Both the position numbers and the translations under genes were made by a program. Below the pieces are notes generated by a model. It did not search any database. It was given only the letters and a program-made list of their open reading frames with translations, and was not told where the DNA came from. A DNA stretch of 64,000 bases from Oscillospiraceae bacterium (lineage in GTDB: Bacteria; Bacillota; Clostridia; Oscillospirales; Ruminococcaceae), in contig JAAVID010000006.1 in assembly GCA_014799395.1 (NCBI GenBank), forward strand, positions 2,282-66,281, in the 5' to 3' direction. This document shows, in pieces, positions 4,401-62,299 of the stretch (the stretch's first letter is position 1; each line of letters starts with the position of its first letter).

Positions 4401-4763
4401 TTATATAACCTCCTACAATGTAAATATAACAAAATAATAGTTAATATTTCGCTAATAATATAATACCAAAACCAAGCAAAAAAATAAAGAGCCTAAACCA
4501 ACAAATATTTTTGAATTCGTTTATATACTTTCACTAACGTTTACAAATTTCCCCTTAAAATCAGCCGCCTTGATTGTCACATTGCACAAAAAAATGCTTG
4601 AATTTGCCGTGATGTCAATGACAGAGCCGAATTTTCGGCATATCTTACAAAGACGCGCTGTATATTTTGGTAATATTAGCACAATATATTGTATTTTATG
4701 TGAAATTTTACGCATATAATAGTCAAGGCTACACAAAATATATAATTAAAGCGGAGGGATAGT
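4401..4763. other. Divergent AT-rich intergenic region
   Basis: 363 bp between the divergent ATPase and DUF4830 genes, strongly AT-rich. A TATAAT at 4715-4720 fits a promoter for the rightward gene, although its -35 box is poor. TATAAT-like sequences on the minus strand near 4420-4465 may serve the ATPase gene. No ORF or RNA is evident. Confidence 0.4.
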
Positions 4764-13107: not shown

Positions 13108-15141
13108 TTGAAGCGTGAAAAAAATAAAAGAGCGGTTTTAAATCTTCCGCTTGTCAGGTTCGCGCCGTTTATGGCGGTCGGAATGCTGGCGGCGTATTTC
13201 GGCGGCGGTCTGTTTTGCGGAATCCTTTTCGCGGCAGCCGCCTTTTCTGTGATTTTCTTTGCCGTTAAGCGAAGCAGGGCGGCAATTTGCGCGGCGGGTC
13301 TGCTGTGGGGTATCGCGGTTATGACGGGTCATCTGGAGCTGTACTGCAAGCCGATAACCGAGTTCGGCGGAAAGACGGTGCGGGCGGAGTTTATCGTAAG
13401 CGAGGTCTCCGTGTTTTCGGGCGGTACGAAATCTTACACCGTCGAGATGAACCTTGCGGGGCGAAAGGCGCTTGTCGAAATCGCCGACAGCCAAAGGTTC
13501 GAGGTCGGCGACAGGGTGACTGCCGTTGTGGAGCTCAACGCGCCCGACAGCGACGATATGATACAAAATCTCGCGGACGGGGTTTTGCTTTCGGGCGAGA
13601 TAACGGAGCTTATCGCGGTCAAAAGCGAAAGCGCGGGCGTTTCCTCGGTCATACGGGGACTGCGCGGACGTATGGTCGAAATGATAAGCGGAAATATTTT
13701 CGGCAAGAGCGGAGAACTTGCGCTGGCAATGCTTCTCGGCGAGGACTCGGCGCTGTCTCCCGTATTGAGAGAAAAGCTGAAAATATGCGGCGCGGCGCAT
13801 TACACGGCGGTCTCGGGCTCGCATTTCGCGCTGTTCGCGGCGGTATTGCTGGGTGCGCTTCCCGAGAAACGGCGGCACGCGAAGCAGGCAATATCGCTGA
13901 TGTTCGCGCCCGCGGCGGTGATATTTTTCGGAGCGTCGCCGTCGGTGCTCCGTGCCTCGGTGATGTTTCTGCTGTACAGTCTCGCTCCGATTTTTTACCG
14001 AAAGGCGGATACGCTCAATTCGCTTTGTATTGCCGTTGCGGTGATCGGCACATTCTCGCCGAACACGATACTCGACACGGGATTTGCGATGTCCGTGCTG
14101 GGCGTGTTCGGCGCGGGAGTTGTCGGGACGGAAATATCGAAAAAGCTGTGTATGCTCCTGCCGGACAAGGCGCAGAAGCTGTCGCCCGTGGTGACCGTGC
14201 TGTCGGTATCGGTCTGCGCTTCGGTATGTACTTCGCCGATAAGCGTTTTCGCGTTTAAGGGGATCTCGCTTATGAGTGCGGTCTCGTCTGTGATACTTAT
14301 GCCGCTTATGACGGTGAGCGTTATCTTTATCATACCGCTCGGGATAACGGGAATGAGCCTTTTCGCGCTTCCCGTTGACCTCGCGATGAGAGCTTCGGCG
14401 GCGGTCGTGGAATTTTTCGGAGGTATCCGCGGACTGTGGCTGACACTTGATTTCGGGTATGCGTGGGTGCTTGCGGCGGGTATCGCGCTGGCGCTCTCCG
14501 CGGCGGCGTTCGGCGATATGAAAACGCTCGCGTTTTCGGGGAAGTGCATTGTCGTGCTTTCCGCCGTTACGCTGTTTATTTCTTTGACGGTCAACCAACG
14601 CCGCAGCGAGGTAAGATTTGTCGGCAATTACAGCACGGGCGCAGCGGTAATATTCGAGGGAAGCGAGGCGGTCGTGTTTATATCGGGCAGCGGCACGGGT
14701 CTGGCGACAAGTATTTCGCGGACAATGCGCGAGCACGGCGCGGTGAAGATAGCGTGTATCGCGGCGTTTGGCGCGGATTACAGCGGTGCGCTGGCGATAC
14801 GGGAGCTGTCGGAAATGGTCGATATAGATACGGTTTATTCCAACGGCGCTGCGCAGGCGCTCCTCGGAGAGCTGAACGTGAAAACCGTTCCCGAGGGCTC
14901 GCGGCTGTCGGTCTCGGGGATCACTCTTGCCGCGGCGAAGCCCTCCGATAAGGTAACGTCGGCGGATATTGTGTTGTATAACGGCAGGCTCACAAAAGAG
15001 CCCGAAAGTCCCGCCGGGTATGCTATATACTTTTCGAGCGCCGAAAAGGAAATGCCCGAAAACTGGTATAACGCGCGGCGCGACAGGGATTTTTACATAA
15101 GACTGGAAAACGGTACGAAGAATATTTCGGTCATACAATGA
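13108..15141 (+). CDS. comEC: ComEC/Rec2 competence channel with degenerate C-terminal domain
   Basis: 677 aa from a weakly supported TTG start. It has an N-terminal OB-like region, the competence channel core (GEDSALSPVLREKLKICGAAHYTAVSGSHFA is diagnostic, around residues 212-243) and many membrane helices to about residue 500. ComEC carries DNA across the membrane in transformation. The last 150 residues look like the usual metallo-beta-lactamase domain, but the HxHxDH metal site is replaced by AAFGADYSG, so the nuclease activity is probably lost. It lies between ebfC and recR, 12 and 15 bp from each. Confidence 0.85.
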   Translation: MKREKNKRAVLNLPLVRFAPFMAVGMLAAYFGGGLFCGILFAAAAFSVIFFAVKRSRAAICAAGLLWGIAVMTGHLELYCKPITEFGGKTVRAEFIVSEVSVFSGGTKSYTVEMNLAGRKALVEIADSQRFEVGDRVTAVVELNAPDSDDMIQNLADGVLLSGEITELIAVKSESAGVSSVIRGLRGRMVEMISGNIFGKSGELALAMLLGEDSALSPVLREKLKICGAAHYTAVSGSHFALFAAVLLGALPEKRRHAKQAISLMFAPAAVIFFGASPSVLRASVMFLLYSLAPIFYRKADTLNSLCIAVAVIGTFSPNTILDTGFAMSVLGVFGAGVVGTEISKKLCMLLPDKAQKLSPVVTVLSVSVCASVCTSPISVFAFKGISLMSAVSSVILMPLMTVSVIFIIPLGITGMSLFALPVDLAMRASAAVVEFFGGIRGLWLTLDFGYAWVLAAGIALALSAAAFGDMKTLAFSGKCIVVLSAVTLFISLTVNQRRSEVRFVGNYSTGAAVIFEGSEAVVFISGSGTGLATSISRTMREHGAVKIACIAAFGADYSGALAIRELSEMVDIDTVYSNGAAQALLGELNVKTVPEGSRLSVSGITLAAAKPSDKVTSADIVLYNGRLTKEPESPAGYAIYFSSAEKEMPENWYNARRDRDFYIRLENGTKNISVIQ

Positions 15142-52238: not shown

Positions 52239-53681
52239 TCAAGTTCCCGCGTCCTCTTTCATTCCGTTAAGAAGCGCTTCGATGTCGTCCTGGCTCATTT
52301 TTCCGCCCGAAGCCGCAGGCTTTTCCTCGACCGGAGCGGGCTCGGGAGCGCTGTCAAGCGTTTCCTGAACAGCCTCGGCAACGTCGCTGACTGCATTCTC
52401 GACCGCGCCGCTTGCCGCCGCCAACATCTTCTCGATGTCGTCCTGGCTCATTTTACCGCCGCTAGACGGCTTTTCCTCAACGGGAGCGGGCTCGGGTTCG
52501 GCAACAGGTTGCTCCGTAACAGGCTCGGGAGCGCTTGCCGCCGCAAGCATTTTCTCGATGTCGTCCTGGCTCATTTTACCGCCGCTAGACGGCTTTTCCT
52601 CAACGGGAGCAGGCCCGAGTTCGGCAACCGGTTCGGCAACAGGTTGCTCCGCAACAGGCTCGGGAGAGCTTGCCGCAAGCATTTTCTCGATGTCGTCCTG
52701 GCTCATCATACCGCCGCTAGACGGTTTTTCCTCAACGGGAGCGGGCTCGGGTTCGGTAACCGGTTCGGCAACAGGTTGCTCCGCAACGGGCTCGGGAGCG
52801 CTTGCCGCCGCCAACATCTTCTCAATGTCGTCCTGGCTCATCTTACCGCCGCTAGACGGCTTTTCCTCAACGGGAGCAGGTTCGGGTTCGGCAACCGGTT
52901 CCTCCGCAACAGGCTCGGGAGAGCTTGCCGCCGCCAACATCTTCTCGATGTTGTCCTGGTTCATCATACCGCCCGATGATTTCTCCTCAACGGGAGCGGG
53001 CTTGGCAGGTTCCTCGTTCATTATATCGGTAAGACCCGATTTGAGCAGCAGAGCTTCTATCTCGTCCGCGGACATAGTATTGTTTGATACGGGCTCGGGC
53101 TCGGAGAGAACCGCGGTCACGGTCTCCGCGGGAGCTTCTTCCGCGAATTTTGCCGCCACGTCTACCTTATGCTGATGAAGTATCTCGTTTACGTCCGCGT
53201 CGGACTGCGGCGCGGTATTCTCGGGCTTTGCCGCCTCGGGCTGAGCCGCTCCGCCGACCCGGGACATAAGGCTGTTCCAAGCGTTTTTGGCGGTCTCGTA
53301 ATCGCAGGTGTCGCCGTCGAAGCGCAGCCAGTATGTATCAAACGGCGTAACGCCTCTGGTCTTTCTGATAATATCGTAAACATTATACTTTTCCAGACCG
53401 AGCAGAGAAAGCTCTGTCAGCGTAAACGGCGTTCTGTCCTGAAAAACGCGGCAGGAAAAGAAATAATATATATCGGAAATGTCAAGCGGACGGTGTATGG
53501 GTGTGATCATCTCTTCCTTATATTTGGTAATAATGCGGCAGGAGACCGTCTGATCGTCCGATATTTCGTATTCCGCGATAGTGCTGTCCTCTTTGAGCAA
53601 TTCGTATTTTACAGGCAGCGGCAGCTCAAACGAGCGGTTGTCTACCATTCTGTATTTATTGCCTTTAAGAACATATCCCAT
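52239..53681 (-). CDS. Protein with seven tandem FliM/FliN-like SQDDIE motifs
   Basis: 480 aa. A folded N-terminal domain of about 145 residues (starts GYVLKGNKYRMVDNRSFELP, ends YETAKNAWNSLMSRVGG) is followed by a long Pro/Glu/Ala linker holding seven copies of a short motif: MSADEIEALLLKSGL, MNQDNIEKMLAAA, four of MSQDDIEKMLAA, and a final MSQDDIEALLNGM. The core is like the N-terminal peptide of FliM/FliN (SQDEIDALL), a known protein-binding motif. The intervening parts repeat nearly exactly (PVEEKPSSGGK). No membrane segment. A multivalent scaffold is likely. Preceded by AAGGAG. Confidence 0.75.
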   Translation of the reverse strand: MGYVLKGNKYRMVDNRSFELPLPVKYELLKEDSTIAEYEISDDQTVSCRIITKYKEEMITPIHRPLDISDIYYFFSCRVFQDRTPFTLTELSLLGLEKYNVYDIIRKTRGVTPFDTYWLRFDGDTCDYETAKNAWNSLMSRVGGAAQPEAAKPENTAPQSDADVNEILHQHKVDVAAKFAEEAPAETVTAVLSEPEPVSNNTMSADEIEALLLKSGLTDIMNEEPAKPAPVEEKSSGGMMNQDNIEKMLAAASSPEPVAEEPVAEPEPAPVEEKPSSGGKMSQDDIEKMLAAASAPEPVAEQPVAEPVTEPEPAPVEEKPSSGGMMSQDDIEKMLAASSPEPVAEQPVAEPVAELGPAPVEEKPSSGGKMSQDDIEKMLAAASAPEPVTEQPVAEPEPAPVEEKPSSGGKMSQDDIEKMLAAASGAVENAVSDVAEAVQETLDSAPEPAPVEEKPAASGGKMSQDDIEALLNGMKEDAGT

Positions 53682-55968: not shown

Positions 55969-56042
55969 GCGGGTGTAGTTCAATGGTAGAATCCCAGCCT
56001 TCCAAGCTGGTCGCGTGGGTTCGATTCCCATCACCCGCTCCA
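55969..56042 (+). tRNA. tRNA-Gly (anticodon TCC)
   Basis: Acceptor GCGGGTG/CACCCGC, anticodon loop CTTCCAA between CCAGC and GCTGG, T-loop TTCGATT, discriminator T and encoded CCA. Confidence 0.95.
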
Positions 56043-56139
56043 TTATTGAAGCGCTCGGTCGTTTTGATAACGTTTCACCCGCAAGTGTGAAACCGCAAAA
56101 ATGCATTCCGTCTTTACGGCGGTTTTTATTTGTTCATCT

Positions 56140-56216
<77 letters not shown>

Positions 56217-56217
56217 T

Positions 56218-56247
56218 AATCGAAAAACGCGAAGCGTTTTTCGATTT
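56218..56247. terminator. Hairpin after tRNA-Arg
   Basis: AATCGAAAAACGC/GCGTTTTTCGATT perfect 13-bp stem with a GAA loop and a following TTTAGCGTTTTTT. It may end the first part of the tRNA transcript. The rest of the gap up to tRNA-His holds smaller hairpins only. Confidence 0.5.
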
Positions 56248-56399
56248 AGCGTTTTTTGCTCGAATTTCCCTAATGGCAATTCGGTTTTACTTCGTAAAAC
56301 ACGCAAAAAGCCGCGTGTTGATCATCTCGGTGAGATGATTTTTGGCGTTATCGCTGAAATGCTGCGCGTGGTTCGGCACCGTAAGGTGAAGGTAAATAT

Positions 56400-56477
56400 G
56401 GTGGGTATAGCCCAGTTGGTTAAGGCGTCAGATTGTGGTCCTGAAGATCGTGGGTTCGATTCCCACTACCCACCCCA
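56400..56477 (+). tRNA. tRNA-His (anticodon GTG)
   Basis: The extra G(-1) of tRNA-His is encoded at 56400 opposite C73. Acceptor GTGGGTA/TACCCAC, anticodon loop TTGTGGT, T-loop TTCGATT, encoded CCA. The last pair of the anticodon stem is an A-C mismatch. Confidence 0.92.
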
Positions 56478-56523
56478 TACTACCTTAAAGGGCATAGGCA
56501 TTTTGCCTGTGTCCTTTAAATTT

Positions 56524-56599
56524 TGGGATATAGCCAAGTGGTAAGGCAAGGGACTTTGACTCCCTCATCTCGTTGGTTCGAATCCAACTATCCCAACCA
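56524..56599 (+). tRNA. tRNA-Gln (anticodon TTG)
   Basis: Acceptor TGGGATA/TATCCCA, anticodon loop CTTTGAC between AGGGA and TCCCT, T-loop TTCGAAT, discriminator A and encoded CCA. It is the last tRNA before the integrase and so the likely attachment gene of the accessory region. Confidence 0.94.
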
Positions 56600-56675: not shown

Positions 56676-57815
56676 TCATTTTTGGACTATCTGATTAAGC
56701 ACACTCACAGCCCTTTGAGATTCTTGAGGATAGAGATGACTGTAAATGTTCCAAGTCATCTGGACGTCGGCATGACCTAATCTTCGAGCAACTTCTTGAA
56801 TATTGATAGAGTTGTTCGCTAATACAGAGGCGTGTGAATGGCGGTAGTCGTGTATTCGTATGTGCGGCAACTCCGCCTCGCTTGCATACTTCTTATTGCG
56901 GTTTTCAACAGAACTGTCGCGTAATGGTGTTTCTCCGCCGCATATACGGTAATCCTCCGTAAAGATGTGGGAAACCGCTCGCTGACGTTCCTTGTGTTCG
57001 TTGAGTATATCTATCAATGGAGTAGGCATTTGCAGATCGCGAATACTGCCCTTGCTTTTGGGAAGTGCCTCATAATCACCGCTGCCCAGCTTTTGAGAAA
57101 TACTCCGTCTTATGCAAACGGTATCTCCTTTAATATCGCTCCATTTCAGTGCAGTCGCCTCTCCCTTTCTCAAACCAAGGTAAAACAGAATGTTGAAGTA
57201 GACATAATAATCCCAGTCTTTTATGGTATTACAATGACTTTTGGCAACCTCAATGAATTTTAGAAATTGCTCAGGTGTGTAATAACGTAATTTCTTGCCG
57301 GGTTCTTCAATAACATTGGAATCCTTGAAAGTTCCCAATGCCGATAAGGGATTTTTTGGAATGTATTCCATTTTAACGGCGTAATTCAGCAAAGCCGAGA
57401 GAGCAGTGTATCCGTTCTTCTTAGTGGTCAGCGACAAATCTTGCTTGCTGATCTCAATCTTCCAATTCGCTAACTTCTGCTGCGTGAGCTTGTCAAGTCT
57501 GCAATCGCCCAAATAAGGCAATACCCTCTTTTGGAGCTTTGCGGCGGTGCTGACGTGAGAAGTCTTGCGTGTTTCGGTTGCGTGATAAGCCATATATTCA
57601 TCGTACAGTTCGCGGACGGTCATCTTAGATTTGGCAAGTCCTTCCTTGTTCTCTTTGTAATCAATGGTCAACCGTTTCTCTGTCATCTGTGCCTCTGCCA
57701 ACCCATAGCACACTCTCTCGACCTGCTTGAACTTCCCGTTTGTATCTTGATAGGAAACTCTTACTCGATAGCCCTGCAAGTTGCCACGCTTTTTATCGAT
57801 CTTGTTTATAGCCAT
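56676..57815 (-). CDS. Tyrosine recombinase, phage/ICE integrase
   Basis: 379 aa. N-terminal arm-binding domain (to about 70), SAM-like core-binding domain (about 75-170) and catalytic domain with the Arg in LGLRKGEATALKW (about 216), HDYRHSHAS (HxxR, about 324), RLGHADVQMT and the nucleophile Tyr in NIYSHLYP (about 360). It ends about 75 bp from tRNA-Gln, the usual set-up for integration into a tRNA 3' end. I found no repeat of the tRNA-Gln end within the window, so the far att site should lie beyond 64 kb. Confidence 0.92.
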   Translation of the reverse strand: MAINKIDKKRGNLQGYRVRVSYQDTNGKFKQVERVCYGLAEAQMTEKRLTIDYKENKEGLAKSKMTVRELYDEYMAYHATETRKTSHVSTAAKLQKRVLPYLGDCRLDKLTQQKLANWKIEISKQDLSLTTKKNGYTALSALLNYAVKMEYIPKNPLSALGTFKDSNVIEEPGKKLRYYTPEQFLKFIEVAKSHCNTIKDWDYYVYFNILFYLGLRKGEATALKWSDIKGDTVCIRRSISQKLGSGDYEALPKSKGSIRDLQMPTPLIDILNEHKERQRAVSHIFTEDYRICGGETPLRDSSVENRNKKYASEAELPHIRIHDYRHSHASVLANNSINIQEVARRLGHADVQMTWNIYSHLYPQESQRAVSVLNQIVQK

Positions 57816-57842: not shown

Positions 57843-57871
57843 ATTATATCATATTCAGTTAGAGAATGCAA
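57843..57871 (-). promoter_or_regulatory. Promoter of the integrase gene
   Basis: On the minus strand TTGCAT (57871-57866), 17-bp spacer and TATAAT (57848-57843). Confidence 0.75.
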
Positions 57872-58310
57872 GTGAAATTTATTGAAGAAGGTAGAATAAG
57901 GACAACAAGCTCGTGACTTCAAACCTTTGAACAGTCTTGGTAAAACCGTTCAAAAAAGAACAAGACTATAAAATCCGCTCTCGTTTATGATCATTATGCC
58001 GCTCGGAGTTTCAAAACTGTCGTTTTGGTAGTTTTGCTTATCCTCGTTGCGTGTCCGAAAAGCGGACGCGCAAAATTGATGATGTTTTGTGCTATTTTCA
58101 CATAACAAATAAAACTAGAATTTCATATCGCACATAAGCTCTCTGGAACGCTCTACAATCAATTCTATGGTGTTGACAGTGTGGTTTCACGCCTAATAGC
58201 AAATGTGCAACAGAACGCAATATACGCGCAAATAGAGCTGTCCTAAATCATCTCTAGCCGCTCGGACTTAGATGTAATAATTTTTTGAGTGATAGTTTTA
58301 CTCCTACTCA

Positions 58311-58846
58311 AACTCGATAACGGAATATTGTTGGGTAATTTAATCTTAATTTGAAACGATTCTTAATGGAACATAATGTTCTGCTAAGAAAGGTCAAAGT
58401 ATGTACAACTCGTTTCTGCCTAAAAGGAAGTGGGTATTAGAGATAAGCCTGATCGTCCACCCAGACGGTTAGGCTTTTTCTACTTGTAGTAAAACTACAA
58501 CTAGAACTCGATGACGAAATGTTATTGAGTGATTTAATCTCAATTTAGAATAATTCTTAATGGGACATTATGTCCAGTTAGAAATGGAAAGTTTTACGAG
58601 TTGTACTTTGAGTACAGCTCGTTTCTATCTATAAAAAGAAAAAGGTTAATGGTCGCGTTTCCCGACCTTTATAATCCTGTGTCTTTGGCTTGCTCGACTG
58701 GAACACCCCAAAACTCAACAACGAAATGTTTGAGTGATTTAGTTTCAATCATTCAAACAATGCCGCTAATCCGTGTTCAATAGGGAATAGATTTGACTAT
58801 GCACCTTGAAATAACTTCTTAATGGGACATTATGTCCTGTTAAGAA
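58311..58846 (+). repeat. Three diverged ~200-bp direct repeats with conserved hairpins
   Basis: Units start AACTCGATAACGGAAT (58311), AACTCGATGACGAAAT (58505) and AACTCAACAACGAAAT (58712). Each has an ATTGAG/CTCAAT-like hairpin and then a TTCTTAA-hairpin: 58360-58390, 58554-58584 and 58816-58846. The offset from unit start to hairpin is 49 bp in the first two and 104 bp in the third. The inner stem is GAACAT/ATGTTC in the first and GGACAT/ATGTCC in the others, a compensatory change. The first unit ends in a terminator-like AAGCCT/AGGCTTTTT hairpin (58445-58479). Confidence 0.7.
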
Positions 58847-59154
58847 CCGTTGTTCGTGCTTAAGGAACGGAATCAAATTCCGCTCGTCGATTCTCTTGGT
58901 AGATAGCAGGAAACAACTGTAATAAGCGAAAGCGGCTTGTACAACGTGATACTTGCCAAATGAGCCTCGTCAAGGGTGCCTTTCAAAGTGGACACCCTTA
59001 TGTTGTGAACCTATGGGGTGGTGATTTGCCACCCCAGCACTTTTGAGCTTGCTAAAGTGATTTCCATGGACAGCGTGAGGTGAGTTTGGCTCACTGCATA
59101 TTCTTAACGCGATCAAGGAGAAACATATCGGCGTTGCACTTTAGCGTGTTAAAA

Positions 59155-59223
59155 ATAGCTCCCCTTTGGGTACGCAGATAGCTCCCCTTTGCCTCCGCAG
59201 ATAGCTCCCTGTTGGGTACGCAA
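59155..59223 (+). repeat. Three tandem 23-bp repeats (iteron-like)
   Basis: Exact 23-bp period: units start at 59155, 59178 and 59201, each ATAGCTCCC(C/T)(T/G)TTG followed by GGTACGCA or CCTCCGCA. Tandem repeats of this size are typical of protein-binding iterons of replication origins, but no Rep gene is in view. Confidence 0.7.
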
Positions 59224-60403
59224 GCGATTTTGTGAGACCGCGCTACAAGCCACTTCACGAGGGATGGTCTCGCCTAATACGTTTAAAACGTTTAACGCAT
59301 TTTGCCTTTTAGCGGCAAATGCGTAAAAAGTAAGTTCCCGAAATGCCTGAAAAAAGAAAGCCTTATTCTTCATTCAGCTACTCGAAATACTCCGTGCAAT
59401 TGACAAACTGGATTCTTAACAGTGGTCAAACCACCATTAAGAAAAATATTTCACACTAATTGGACTATTTGTCCAATTAGCCAATGTTATACAGATGACT
59501 TTTAAATTTGAATTGCTTCCAACGAATTTCGTTGGAAACCCACCTTACGCACCTATCGAAACGACACTTTAGCTCGTAAAAGGGAAAGGGTGCCCTGTTT
59601 TAGGGCGCTATGTAATACAGCAACCTTGTATTATCTAACAATTGATTATTTATGACGGGATGATTTATCCCATCGTGGTTTGAGTGGGACATTTTGTCCC
59701 GGTCAAAACATCAACGGTGAACAAATCGTTCGCCGTCTGACCCGTCAAAACGACGGGTTTCATTTCTATTGCAGTAATCCGTCTGTCCAAAAGTGGACTG
59801 GCGGTTTGTGTTATATTAATGAAGAATAACGGAGGAATGTGGGGACTATCCGAAAAGCGGACTAACCCTCCCGTTTTAAGCTCTTAAAAGAACTGTGCGG
59901 TTGGGGTGCGACAAAACGTTACCCCACGTCGAACAAAAAACGCAATCCCAATTTAGGACTGCATCAGTATTTCGTCGACTTAGGTCAAATTGTGGATTGA
60001 TACATTTTGAATTGCTGGAAATCCGTAAGTTAAACCATTCCCCTATTGTGGGGTAGTGGTTTGCTCTCGGGTTCATAACACTACCTAGGGGCGTGGCAGC
60101 CTTCGCTAGGCAGTCGGAGATCAGTCCCAAAGTGGACTGCCTAAGTTATATGTGGTAGGGTATTGAGAGTCCGCGCGGCGGACGCTCATTAGTGCTTGGT
60201 TACCAGATCCTCGGAATGCAATTCAAGCATATGTTGATAGTGGAGCAAAACCACCGCACTGATTCGGTGCATTGATAGTCCACTTGGAAGACGCTCAAGG
60301 AAACAGCACATTTTTTCCTTTACAGGCTCAGATTTTGATATGTTGACTGTGCCAAAATATGTACCTTTTCGATAAAGGCTAACGGCAGTGAAAAACGTTC
60401 ATA

Positions 60404-60432
60404 TTGACTTTTGGATAAAAATAGTGTAGAAT
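60404..60432 (+). promoter_or_regulatory. Promoter of the zinc-ribbon gene
   Basis: TTGACT (60404-60409), 17-bp spacer and TAGAAT (60427-60432), marking the right boundary of the hairpin-rich tract. Confidence 0.75.
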
Positions 60433-60466
60433 TAAAAGGAGATTTTGATTATGGGGGTAATGTCCA

Positions 60467-61504
60467 GTGAATGCCTTGATTTGTGAAATGTGTGGAAGTA
60501 ATGACATAATCAAGCAAAATGGCTGTTATGTTTGTCAGGCTTGCGGCACAAAATACTCGGTTGAAGAAGCAAAAAAGATGATCGGCATTGTAGATGTGTC
60601 TGGAAGTACAGTTAAAGTTGATAATTCCGATGAATTATCAAACTTATACCAAATTGCACGTCGTGCCAAAGTTCACAATGATATTGAAAGTGCTATGAAA
60701 TATTATGAAATGATTCTCATTAAAGATCCATCAAGTTGGGAAGGAAATTTTTTCTCAGTTTATTTTAGAGCAATTCAATGTAAAATTTTAGAAATTGCGA
60801 CTACTGGTACAATAATGCAGAATTGCATCGAAACAACGTTACAGCTTATCTCGGATAATGTCAGTAACGGTGATGAAAGAAGAATGGCTGTTGAAGAAGT
60901 TCAGCAAAAGTCTTACTTTATTTCAAACATGCTTGTTGCTGCCGCAGAAGATTACTATAGTAAACTTGAGGAATCTATGCGCAATCAATACGTTGAAGAA
61001 TATATTATAATGACCTCAGCTGCAAGTGGTATTGTCGGGGTGTTTTGTAACGAGTTAAGCGAAATATTTGCTGATGATAGTGCGGTCATGTTCCCTTTTG
61101 GTATCACTGTTTTGAAAGATCGTATTAAGGGAGGTATAGTTCTTAACTGGGAAGAAAAATATGCAGCTATAATTAGGAAGTATGAACCTGATTATATTCC
61201 GCCAAAAAGAGAAAAACTATTGCCTGTTCAAACAACATCTGATGGGTGTTACATAGCAACCTGTATTTATTGGTCTTATGATTGCTCTCAAGTATGGACT
61301 TTGCGCAGATTTAGAGATTACAAACTCTCAAAAACTCTTGCTGGAAGACTGTTTATCAAAACTTATTACGCTACAAGCCCCCATTTGGTAAATGCTTTCG
61401 GAAAGACTTCCTTGTTTCAGAAGTTCTGGAAAAAGGTTCTTGATAGTTTTATAAAACAATTGATTGAAAAGGGGTATGAGGATACTCCATATTATGATAG
61501 ATGA
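60467..61504 (+). CDS. Zinc-ribbon protein with CFI-box C-terminus
   Basis: 345 aa from a GTG start. N-terminal zinc ribbon with two CxxC pairs (ICEMCGSNDII and VCQACGTKYS), then the typical EEAKKMIGIVDVSGSTVKVDNS linker, a helical middle (TPR-like, about 55-250), and a C-terminal domain GCYIATCIYWSYDCSQVWTLRRFRDYKL of the CFI-box type. Function unknown. A better ribosome-binding site (AGGAG) serves an out-of-frame ATG at 60451 whose 11-codon ORF overlaps this start, so re-initiation is likely. Low GC and different codon use from the core genes suggest transfer. Confidence 0.78.
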   Translation: MNALICEMCGSNDIIKQNGCYVCQACGTKYSVEEAKKMIGIVDVSGSTVKVDNSDELSNLYQIARRAKVHNDIESAMKYYEMILIKDPSSWEGNFFSVYFRAIQCKILEIATTGTIMQNCIETTLQLISDNVSNGDERRMAVEEVQQKSYFISNMLVAAAEDYYSKLEESMRNQYVEEYIIMTSAASGIVGVFCNELSEIFADDSAVMFPFGITVLKDRIKGGIVLNWEEKYAAIIRKYEPDYIPPKREKLLPVQTTSDGCYIATCIYWSYDCSQVWTLRRFRDYKLSKTLAGRLFIKTYYATSPHLVNAFGKTSLFQKFWKKVLDSFIKQLIEKGYEDTPYYDR

Positions 61505-62083: not shown

Positions 62084-62299
62084 TTAATCCTCTGTATCCT
62101 CAGGAATATATTCCATTATGTCGCCCGGTTGACAATTCAAAATAGCACATACTTTTTCTAATGTTTTAGTATCAACATCACCGCCATTTTTCATTTTGGT
62201 GAGTGATGATTGAGATATTAAATTATCTTTTCTGATTTTGTATGTGCTTATTCCTTTTTCTTTAAATAATGCGAACATTTTATCATATTTGAACGGCAT
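62084..62299 (-). CDS. XRE/Cro-type repressor
   Basis: 71 aa, a single helix-turn-helix domain (STYKIRKDNLISQSSLTKMKNGGDVDTKTLEKVCAILN), typical of small phage-like repressors. GGAAG precedes the ATG. It is divergent from the gene at 62492, and three matched operators fill the gap, so it very likely represses both promoters. Confidence 0.88.
   Translation of the reverse strand: MPFKYDKMFALFKEKGISTYKIRKDNLISQSSLTKMKNGGDVDTKTLEKVCAILNCQPGDIMEYIPEDTED

Follow-up and report, generated by a model that had tools for sequence, protein, structure and literature searches.

Phages are known to encode small RNAs that act on antirepressors. PMC12197685 describes the sar RNA of P22 and the c4 RNA of P1/P7 as lowering antirepressor synthesis, and 24B_1 of Phi24B as proposed to do so. 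The sar and c4 RNAs block translation initiation, and each of the three is a single RNA. Here we describe a hairpin-rich non-coding tract of about 2.6 kb that lies within a mobile element of an Oscillospiraceae bacterium, in the 64,000-nt stretch of contig JAAVID010000006.1 that was analysed (the window). From sequence comparison, the tract appears to be an array of short hairpins related to a variable loop of Bro-N antirepressor genes, together with a few longer Bro-N fragments and a foreign-type origin-like region. If RNAs made from the tract act on antirepressors, they would extend the theme of the small phage RNAs. Unlike these, the tract is a kilobase array of many palindromes that relate to an internal coding loop, lie in both orientations and have no match in Rfam. 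The feature as a whole is as follows.

57,850-60,440, unstranded: hairpin-saturated non-coding tract of 2,590 bp (open reading frame (ORF) listing, folding and stem counts)

The Bro-N genes used for comparison were drawn from 400 fetched loci, taken as the best 80 per query and hence an uneven sample. We left out 146 that had no motif, no open frame or a position near a contig end. The other 254 satisfied the requirements for motif and frame and yielded 207 distinct loops and 181 non-redundant ones; the count leaves aside eight PEGD-type genes that lack the motif, six of which have a stem score of at least 6. In the variable loop that precedes the INESGLY motif, 33 of the 181 genes (18%) contain a perfect inverted repeat of 8 bp or more, as against 0.8% when the loop is shuffled among synonymous codons (maximum 2.8% in 100 shuffles) and 0-1.7% at other gene positions, with 3.9% in one window that partly overlaps the loop. 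Perfect repeats of at least 10 bp occur in 20 of 181 genes compared with 0.24 by shuffle, and when mismatches are allowed a strong loop stem is present in 133 of 181, compared with 14-26 of 181 at five other positions. The loop palindrome is confined to one place in the gene and is unexplained by the protein sequence.

The same feature is seen within the genus of the host. A profile search there found 33 distinct Bro-N ORFs, 19 with the INESGLY motif, and a stem of at least 8 (G-U pairs allowed) is present in 8 of these 19 compared with 7.7% of 235 segments from elsewhere in these genes. The set used for tblastn came from 30 genus loci, 12 of which were unrecognised by the first script, leaving 18 plus L002. 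The sole Bro-N gene found in the element's own genome, L104 (G000:C90), is of the PEGD type and has a 9-bp perfect loop palindrome.

Covariation was assessed on 50 aligned loops of one type with a fixed-length protein pattern (set A3; 49 distinct rows). These loops contain 69 cells with two-sided change, compared with 29.2 in shuffles, and have a covariation score of 0.365 compared with 0.176; neither value was reached in 500 shuffles, and shifting the pairing partners lowers both measures. The shuffle keeps the kinship of the sequences in the statistic. The paired changes extend to sites that alter the protein, as in GVNETFTPG, GVTKIVTPG, GVAKRDTLG and GITNRYTLG. As far as these alignments go, Bro-N loops are shown to conserve base pairing while their sequence varies.

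Hairpins of the tract were compared with the Bro-N loops in two ways. With 35 distinct Bro-N palindromes as the query and arm-permuted palindromes as the control, 12 score at least 24 against the tract (1.15 expected) and 8 score at least 28 (0.12 expected). In seven control regions the same 35 palindromes give 0-1 scores of at least 24 (0.2-0.5 expected) and none of at least 28. The second comparison used 200 loop segments, made up of the 181 non-redundant loops and 19 from the genus. The tract is matched by 48 of the 200 at a score of at least 26 and by 32 at a score of at least 30, compared with 1-4 of 198-200 and 0-1 for five other segments of the same Bro-N genes. Two other regions of the window are matched by 1 and 7 loop segments at 26 or more, and by 0 and 2 at 30 or more. 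The tract matches fall at 15 places, several of them weak (26-27), and one at 59,177 overlaps tandem repeats and may be a chance match. These comparisons show many tract hairpins and Bro-N loop palindromes to be related in sequence. As with sar and c4, there is thus sequence complementary to antirepressor mRNA at the 15 loop-related places, some of them weak; the matched site is the internal loop before INESGLY and not the neighbourhood of the ribosome-binding site. The Bro-N fragments and loop-like hairpins of the tract are listed here.

57,956-58,069, minus strand: Bro-N fragment (tblastn E 9e-5) with a loop hairpin at about 58,012-58,036; best loop L240, score 63
58,505-58,530, unstranded: hairpin ACTCGATGACGAAATGTTATTGAGT, with diverged copies at 58,311 and 58,712
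58,647-58,671, unstranded: Bro-N-loop-like hairpin, best loop L497
58,859-58,987, plus strand: Bro-N fragment in sense with two stops (tblastn E 3e-9); hairpin CGGAATCAAATTCCG at 58,868-58,882
58,955-58,999, plus strand: Bro-N-loop-like stretch, best loop L360, score 31
59,014-59,036, unstranded: 8-bp perfect hairpin with a weak Bro-N-loop match, score 26
59,079-59,099, minus strand: Bro-N-loop-like hairpin, best loop L380, score 35
59,584-59,607, minus strand: Bro-N-loop-like stretch, L464, weak (27), common to the integrase-side array of L016
59,650-59,674, minus strand: Bro-N-loop-like hairpin, L218, ..DDGMKHPVI..
59,714-59,737, minus strand: Bro-N-loop hairpin ACGGTGAACAAATCGTTCGCCGT of the ..TVNESFTV.. 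type
59,740-59,758, unstranded: Bro-N-loop-like hairpin, L191 (..LTRQFGG..), score 24
59,900-59,926, plus strand: Bro-N-loop-like stretch, best loop L130, score 30
59,939-59,989, plus strand: two weak Bro-N-loop-like places ending at 59,961 and 59,989, score 27 each
60,190-60,279, plus strand: Bro-N fragment in sense (PRNAIQAYVD.., then a frame change); tblastn match in the part 60,209-60,279, E 0.007

The three Bro-N fragments all centre on the variable loop, here before INESGLYSLI. By DNA comparison, the fragment at 60,190-60,279 matches an intact Bro-N gene of L024 with 83% identity across 84 aligned positions (E 9.3e-16). Among phage DNA there are three matches to the tract below E 0.1 in all: the best (E 6e-9) falls in an unannotated record, within an intact gene for a Bro-N/KilAC antirepressor, and the other two (E 0.06) are in genes annotated as antirepressors. 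With changes, the hairpin ACTCGATGACGAAATGTTATTGAGT also occurs in a Bro-N ORF (..LNNVSLSSLG..) and behind phage integrases. The earlier note on this DNA had set down a match to decayed coding genes as one of the outcomes that would speak against its view. Coding remnants are indeed present as Bro-N fragments; they take mainly the unexpected form of loop hairpins, and a simple decayed gene is ruled out because the Bro-N loop recurs far more than the rest of the gene.

The tract also contains a family of 31-nt hairpins in which a near-constant outer stem frames a variable inner stem.

58,360-58,390, unstranded: framed hairpin, copy 1
58,554-58,584, unstranded: framed hairpin, copy 2
58,816-58,846, unstranded: framed hairpin, copy 3
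59,413-59,443, minus strand: framed hairpin, copy 4, inverted

Across five sequences, these framed hairpins, four of them in the tract, have 7 two-sided cells compared with 2.5 in shuffles (1 of 500), and 4 pairs with paired change compared with 2.2 (43 of 500). Their pattern occurs in 2 of 43 genus genomes, and a reversed control pattern matches once in a third.

The underlying structure of the tract is well above background. Folding of 57,850-58,840 gives -271.6 kcal/mol compared with -220.5 +/- 6.5 for 20 dinucleotide shuffles (z -7.9). In 150-nt windows the mean z of the tract is -2.53 on the plus strand and -2.38 on the minus strand (n=32 per strand), compared with -0.67 and -0.53 for the rest of the 64-kb window (n=816 per strand), and the tract forms the lowest-z 2.4-kb block on both strands. 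There are 15 perfect short-looped stems of 6 bp or more, compared with 3.65 expected (maximum 9 in 20 shuffles), and 3 of 8 bp or more, compared with 0.35 expected from shuffles. The earlier note had correctly recognised the structured, non-coding, mobile-DNA character of this region. Its coordinates and its claim of no credible ORF over about 2.5 kb hold, the longest listed ORF between the end of the integrase gene (57,815) and the next gene (60,467) being 84 aa. Stems were said to recur almost every 60 bases; their excess over chance is borne out, and their spacing is a little wider, with 30 near-perfect stems or about one per 86 bases. The loops had been called A-rich on the plus strand, which is contradicted by the overall letter count of T 56, A 47, C 27 and G 24, and this composition does not support the use of A-rich plus-strand loops as a sign of direction. 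Mispairs on the plus strand (G-U 13, A-C 7) are not decisive. Promoter-like sites (11 compared with 5.7 +/- 2.1) and terminator-like sites (11 compared with 2.5 +/- 1.9) are likewise not decisive on transcription; one of the latter kind is listed here.

58,445-58,476, plus strand: intrinsic-terminator-like hairpin within the tract

None of the 4227 Rfam covariance models reaches its gathering score in the tract, and at E values up to 10 nothing convincing appears, the best sub-threshold model being rpsL_ricks at 29.9 of 60 bits. This agrees with the view taken earlier that the tract does not obviously match a nameable class. GOLLD, ROOL and OLE are among the families contained in Rfam, according to PMC12286853. 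The tract is present as one copy in its own genome, and 10 of 100 genomes, its own included, have a DNA match to it at E <=0.01, several of them short and weak; plasmid records have no tract match at E 1e-5. The islands that the tract shares with its two best relatives, L021 and L025, stand there in a different order from that in the window, so the tract is modular and is not one co-linear giant RNA. The proposal of a candidate giant structured RNA is therefore rejected in the form of a single co-linear RNA. In contrast to GOLLD and ROOL, the tract has no Rfam match, does not conserve the order of its islands and is built of separate small hairpins. ARAGORN finds no tRNA inside the tract, and a tRNA-like tract is rejected on that account.

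Hairpin arrays of similar character occur at other loci. Three lie behind Pfam-confirmed integrases in the genus: L027 (G013:C118), L082 (G041:C110) and L016. A fourth, L084 in the element's own genome (G000:C13), follows a 315-nt stretch with 78% identity to the 3' part of the integrase gene of L027. Two further genera of the family contribute one array each: that of L528 is near an integrase (PF00589), and that of L529 is behind a gene without a Pfam match. L084, L082, L027, L528 and L529 came to light by way of a single hairpin motif or a shared island and so contain one match each by construction. The 35 palindromes give 15 scores of at least 24 against the arrays of L084, L082 and L027, compared with 0.55 expected, and 51 of the 200 loop segments match L528 and L529. 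In a scan of 33 loci outside Bro-N genes, four have at least three loop matches at 32 or more (L076, which is the tract itself, L016, L529 and L527); 29 have fewer than three, and 16 of the 33, including L074, L075, L066, L068 and L070, have none. We also observed that the arrays at L016:1501-1893 and L027:6762-7014 lie directly behind related phage integrases and have modules in common with the tract.

The same hairpins can be followed into Bro-N genes and viral contigs. At up to 2 mismatches, ACTCRATAACGAAATGTTATTGAGT occurs at 7 places in 6 of the 43 genus genomes, the G015 place being inside a Bro-N ORF. In viral contigs ACGGTGAACGAWWCGTTCACCGT is found in 11 stretches, nine of them in Bro-N frames (including L522, L516 and L523) and two intergenic (L519 and L524). 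At L519:2872-2954 (IMG/VR) an intergenic 37-bp Bro-N-type hairpin stands between 23-nt direct repeats, and L524 is alike; on its sequence the L519 hairpin looks as if it had been inserted with duplication of its target. The viral contig L527 (IMG/VR) carries three Bro-N-type hairpins in about 90 bp at 4560-4700, about 1.3 kb from its own Bro-N gene, and is a possible phage-borne array.

A smaller part of the tract has a different kinship. Iteron-type plasmid origins combine tandem repeats with conserved hairpins, and one region of the tract has the same two components.

59,137-59,357, plus strand: copy of an origin-like region, with three 22-nt repeats (59,155-59,222) followed by conserved hairpins

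The repeats, spaced 23 nt, stand in three copies, and the region shares 83% identity with L022 (193 nt) and 79% with L074 (160 nt). In both loci its counterpart is intergenic and lies before a gene for a primase/DnaB-type helicase. On the other side, the L022 gene scores 22.3 bits against Rep_3, just under the cut-off of 22.4, and the L074 gene has no Pfam match. The tract copy differs from iteron-type origins in having no adjacent rep gene and in being of a type that is not the element's own. As we read it, the element's own region, of this layout but with different repeats, is at L076:12197-12535 and thus beyond the window. By these matches the tract carries a copy of a foreign-type origin-like region without its neighbour genes. 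The alternative suggestion of a structured DNA locus such as an origin is therefore partly right, for this module of about 220 of the 2,590 bp. The tracts of L021 and L077 also contain origin-like modules. As a separate observation, L022 and L074 have the primase/DnaB-type gene as a single ORF of about 670 aa, and the element itself has it as two overlapping ORFs (L076:12536-13504 and 13434-14537, outside the window), so this copy may be frameshifted.

Our preferred explanation, offered tentatively and at somewhat less than an even chance, is that RNAs from the array pair with and silence the antirepressor mRNAs of competing phages. The array would be transcribed to give hairpin RNAs, and a nearly self-complementary hairpin RNA would pair with an antirepressor mRNA bearing the same palindrome in either orientation. 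Pairing would lower production of the matching antirepressor and keep the resident element's repressor, and hence its quiescence, safe from the antirepressors of incoming phages; a Cro/C1-type gene of the element is possibly the repressor to be protected. In its favour stand the Bro-N fragments, the excess of loop matches in the tract, the confinement and covariation of the loop palindrome, the paired changes of the framed hairpins, the similar arrays at other loci, the Cro/C1-type gene and the precedent of phage RNAs directed at antirepressors. Several results weigh against this proposal. The orientation of the 15 places is mixed (8 minus, 7 plus) with no antisense bias, and a classical antisense orientation is unsupported; the mixture fits a palindromic RNA, which in either orientation is complementary to an mRNA carrying its palindrome. 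About half of the 30 tract stems have no Bro-N match yet, and the L021 and L077 tracts match less well (5 of 35 palindromes compared with 0.85 expected). Protein matches at E 0.1 also arise in controls, with 1-2 in 9 of 20 window regions and in the reversed tract; controls give 0-2 places at this level, so only the strong tblastn matches count. In set A3 neither the number of pairs with two-sided change (7 compared with 6.7 in shuffles) nor the number of pair types (22 compared with 20.6) is in excess. Mispairs on the sense strand of Bro-N loops are more often A-C (32) than G-U (9) in these non-independent genes, and stay so (29 and 9) when one allele group is removed. The framed hairpins, expected in Bro-N genes as well, have no exact pattern match in viral contigs, which leaves their connection with Bro-N unproven. 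Between L104 and the tract there is no match (score 19); as one case, this fits immunity against others. Finally, if targeting were all, Bro-N genes would be expected to lose the palindrome; it must therefore have a further use or be maintained in some further way, be it a control RNA of the phage itself, structure-recognised exchange or template-switch correction. A broader version, in which growing libraries of captured and transcribed hairpins constitute a Cas-free, sequence-specific RNA immunity and the Bro-N loop is a palindromic address, free in sequence but constrained in pairing, whose protein sequence is driven by RNA or DNA pairing, we regard as doubtful.

The hairpins might instead be sites or tiny mobile units that are read by shape on single-stranded or cruciform DNA, in the manner of attC sites, with movement between Bro-N genes and arrays diversifying the antirepressor loop and the array acting as a reservoir, an idea that we consider rather doubtful. 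It would explain why the arms change but remain paired in coding and non-coding copies alike, why orientation is unbiased, and why the tract adjoins an integrase gene, as the L027, L082, L016 and L528 arrays lie behind or near an integrase and the L084 array behind a stretch similar to part of an integrase gene; the direct repeats at L519 and L524 suit it too. No recombinase is tied to the sites, however, and no integrase was noticed in 3 kb of L529, where not all ORFs were tested. The loops of eight aligned Bro-N proteins differ by only a few residues in length and so include no empty site, and a search with the L519 flanks for an empty target returned only L519 and L524. Accretion of debris is an unlikely explanation: palindromic loops that are fragile or prone to template switching would shed fragments to be captured by chance in tolerated non-coding DNA, and switching within a hairpin would keep its arms matched without selection. 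The mosaic islands, the broken Bro-N frames, the captured origin-like copy and the mixed orientation have this look, and template switching would yield paired changes without function. Debris accounts poorly for matches that come far more from the loop than from other parts of the same Bro-N genes, for a hairpin density and folding excess that, over 2.5 kb, no other part of the window equals, and for loci in two other genera that also hold several such hairpins. It is quite improbable that the tract is a composite origin or decoy, in which foreign repeats and hairpins titrate the initiator or primase of competitors or let the element use them. The region at 59,137-59,357 is a well-kept copy of the pre-primase region of L022 and L074, unlike the element's own, and such modules recur in L021 and L077, but this explanation covers none of the Bro-N hairpins.

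Other described systems share single traits with the tract. Rickettsia palindromic elements are longer, sequence-conserved families found in many unrelated genes. Like them, the hairpins described here place palindromic DNA inside ORFs and between genes, and the same palindrome is found in coding and intergenic DNA; unlike them, they are tied to one gene family and one codon position, with free sequence and conserved pairing. Integron attC sites are hairpins recognised by structure and arrayed beside a tyrosine recombinase. The tract is also a hairpin array beside a tyrosine recombinase gene, but its hairpins are about 15-40 nt and no cassettes were noticed between them (no scan with an attC model was made). 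CRISPR arrays resemble the tract as a string of short pieces related to invader genes, and differ in that the tract has no regular direct repeat, only diverged repeats of 2-4 copies at irregular spacing. The CRISPR-DR66 model scores 18.6 of 45 bits in the tract, far under its cut-off; Cas genes were not searched for. In the parts of the open PMC literature consulted, no description of palindromic Bro-N loops or of such arrays was found. Antirepressors can decide whether resident prophages wake, and the kinship of tract and Bro-N hairpins hints at an unrecognised contest between mobile elements. If silencing by array RNAs is true, it would be a new form of interference between such elements, with RNA or DNA hairpins as the weapons, and an unusual instance of a protein whose variable region is shaped by nucleic-acid pairing. 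The tract also offers a way to test what 'structured junk' beside integrases does.

The tRNA cluster and integrase gene reported beside the tract were confirmed: four tRNAs at 55,969-56,599 adjoin the gene of a tyrosine integrase. Within the assembly, no second copy of the 3' end of tRNA-Gln was found at up to 3 mismatches. The cargo gene beyond the tract has one sub-threshold zinc-finger match and no PADLOC or PHROG match at E 0.01, and the element's contig continues with Fic, resolvase, primase and helicase genes.

56,524-56,599, plus strand: tRNA-Gln(ttg), last of the four and possible attachment gene of the element (ARAGORN)
56,676-57,815, minus strand: tyrosine integrase of the mobile element (PF00589, E 5e-20)
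60,467-61,504, plus strand: cargo gene, 345 aa, no Pfam match above cut-off
62,084-62,299, minus strand: Cro/C1-type helix-turn-helix gene, possible element repressor (PF13443, E 1.5e-15)

In related elements the slot adjacent to the integrase holds varied cargo (L075:4309-6093 and L021:2199-3593), including a GmrSD-type protein in L075, and has the appearance of a hotspot for cargo or defence genes. Upstream of the integrase gene, the non-coding stretches L021:1260-2190, L074:2311-3147 and L075:2494-3123 are alike by eye and are distinct from the hairpin arrays. Elsewhere in the window, positions 52,239-53,681 (minus strand) encode a 480-aa protein with repeated SGGKMSQDDIEKMLAAAS-like units.

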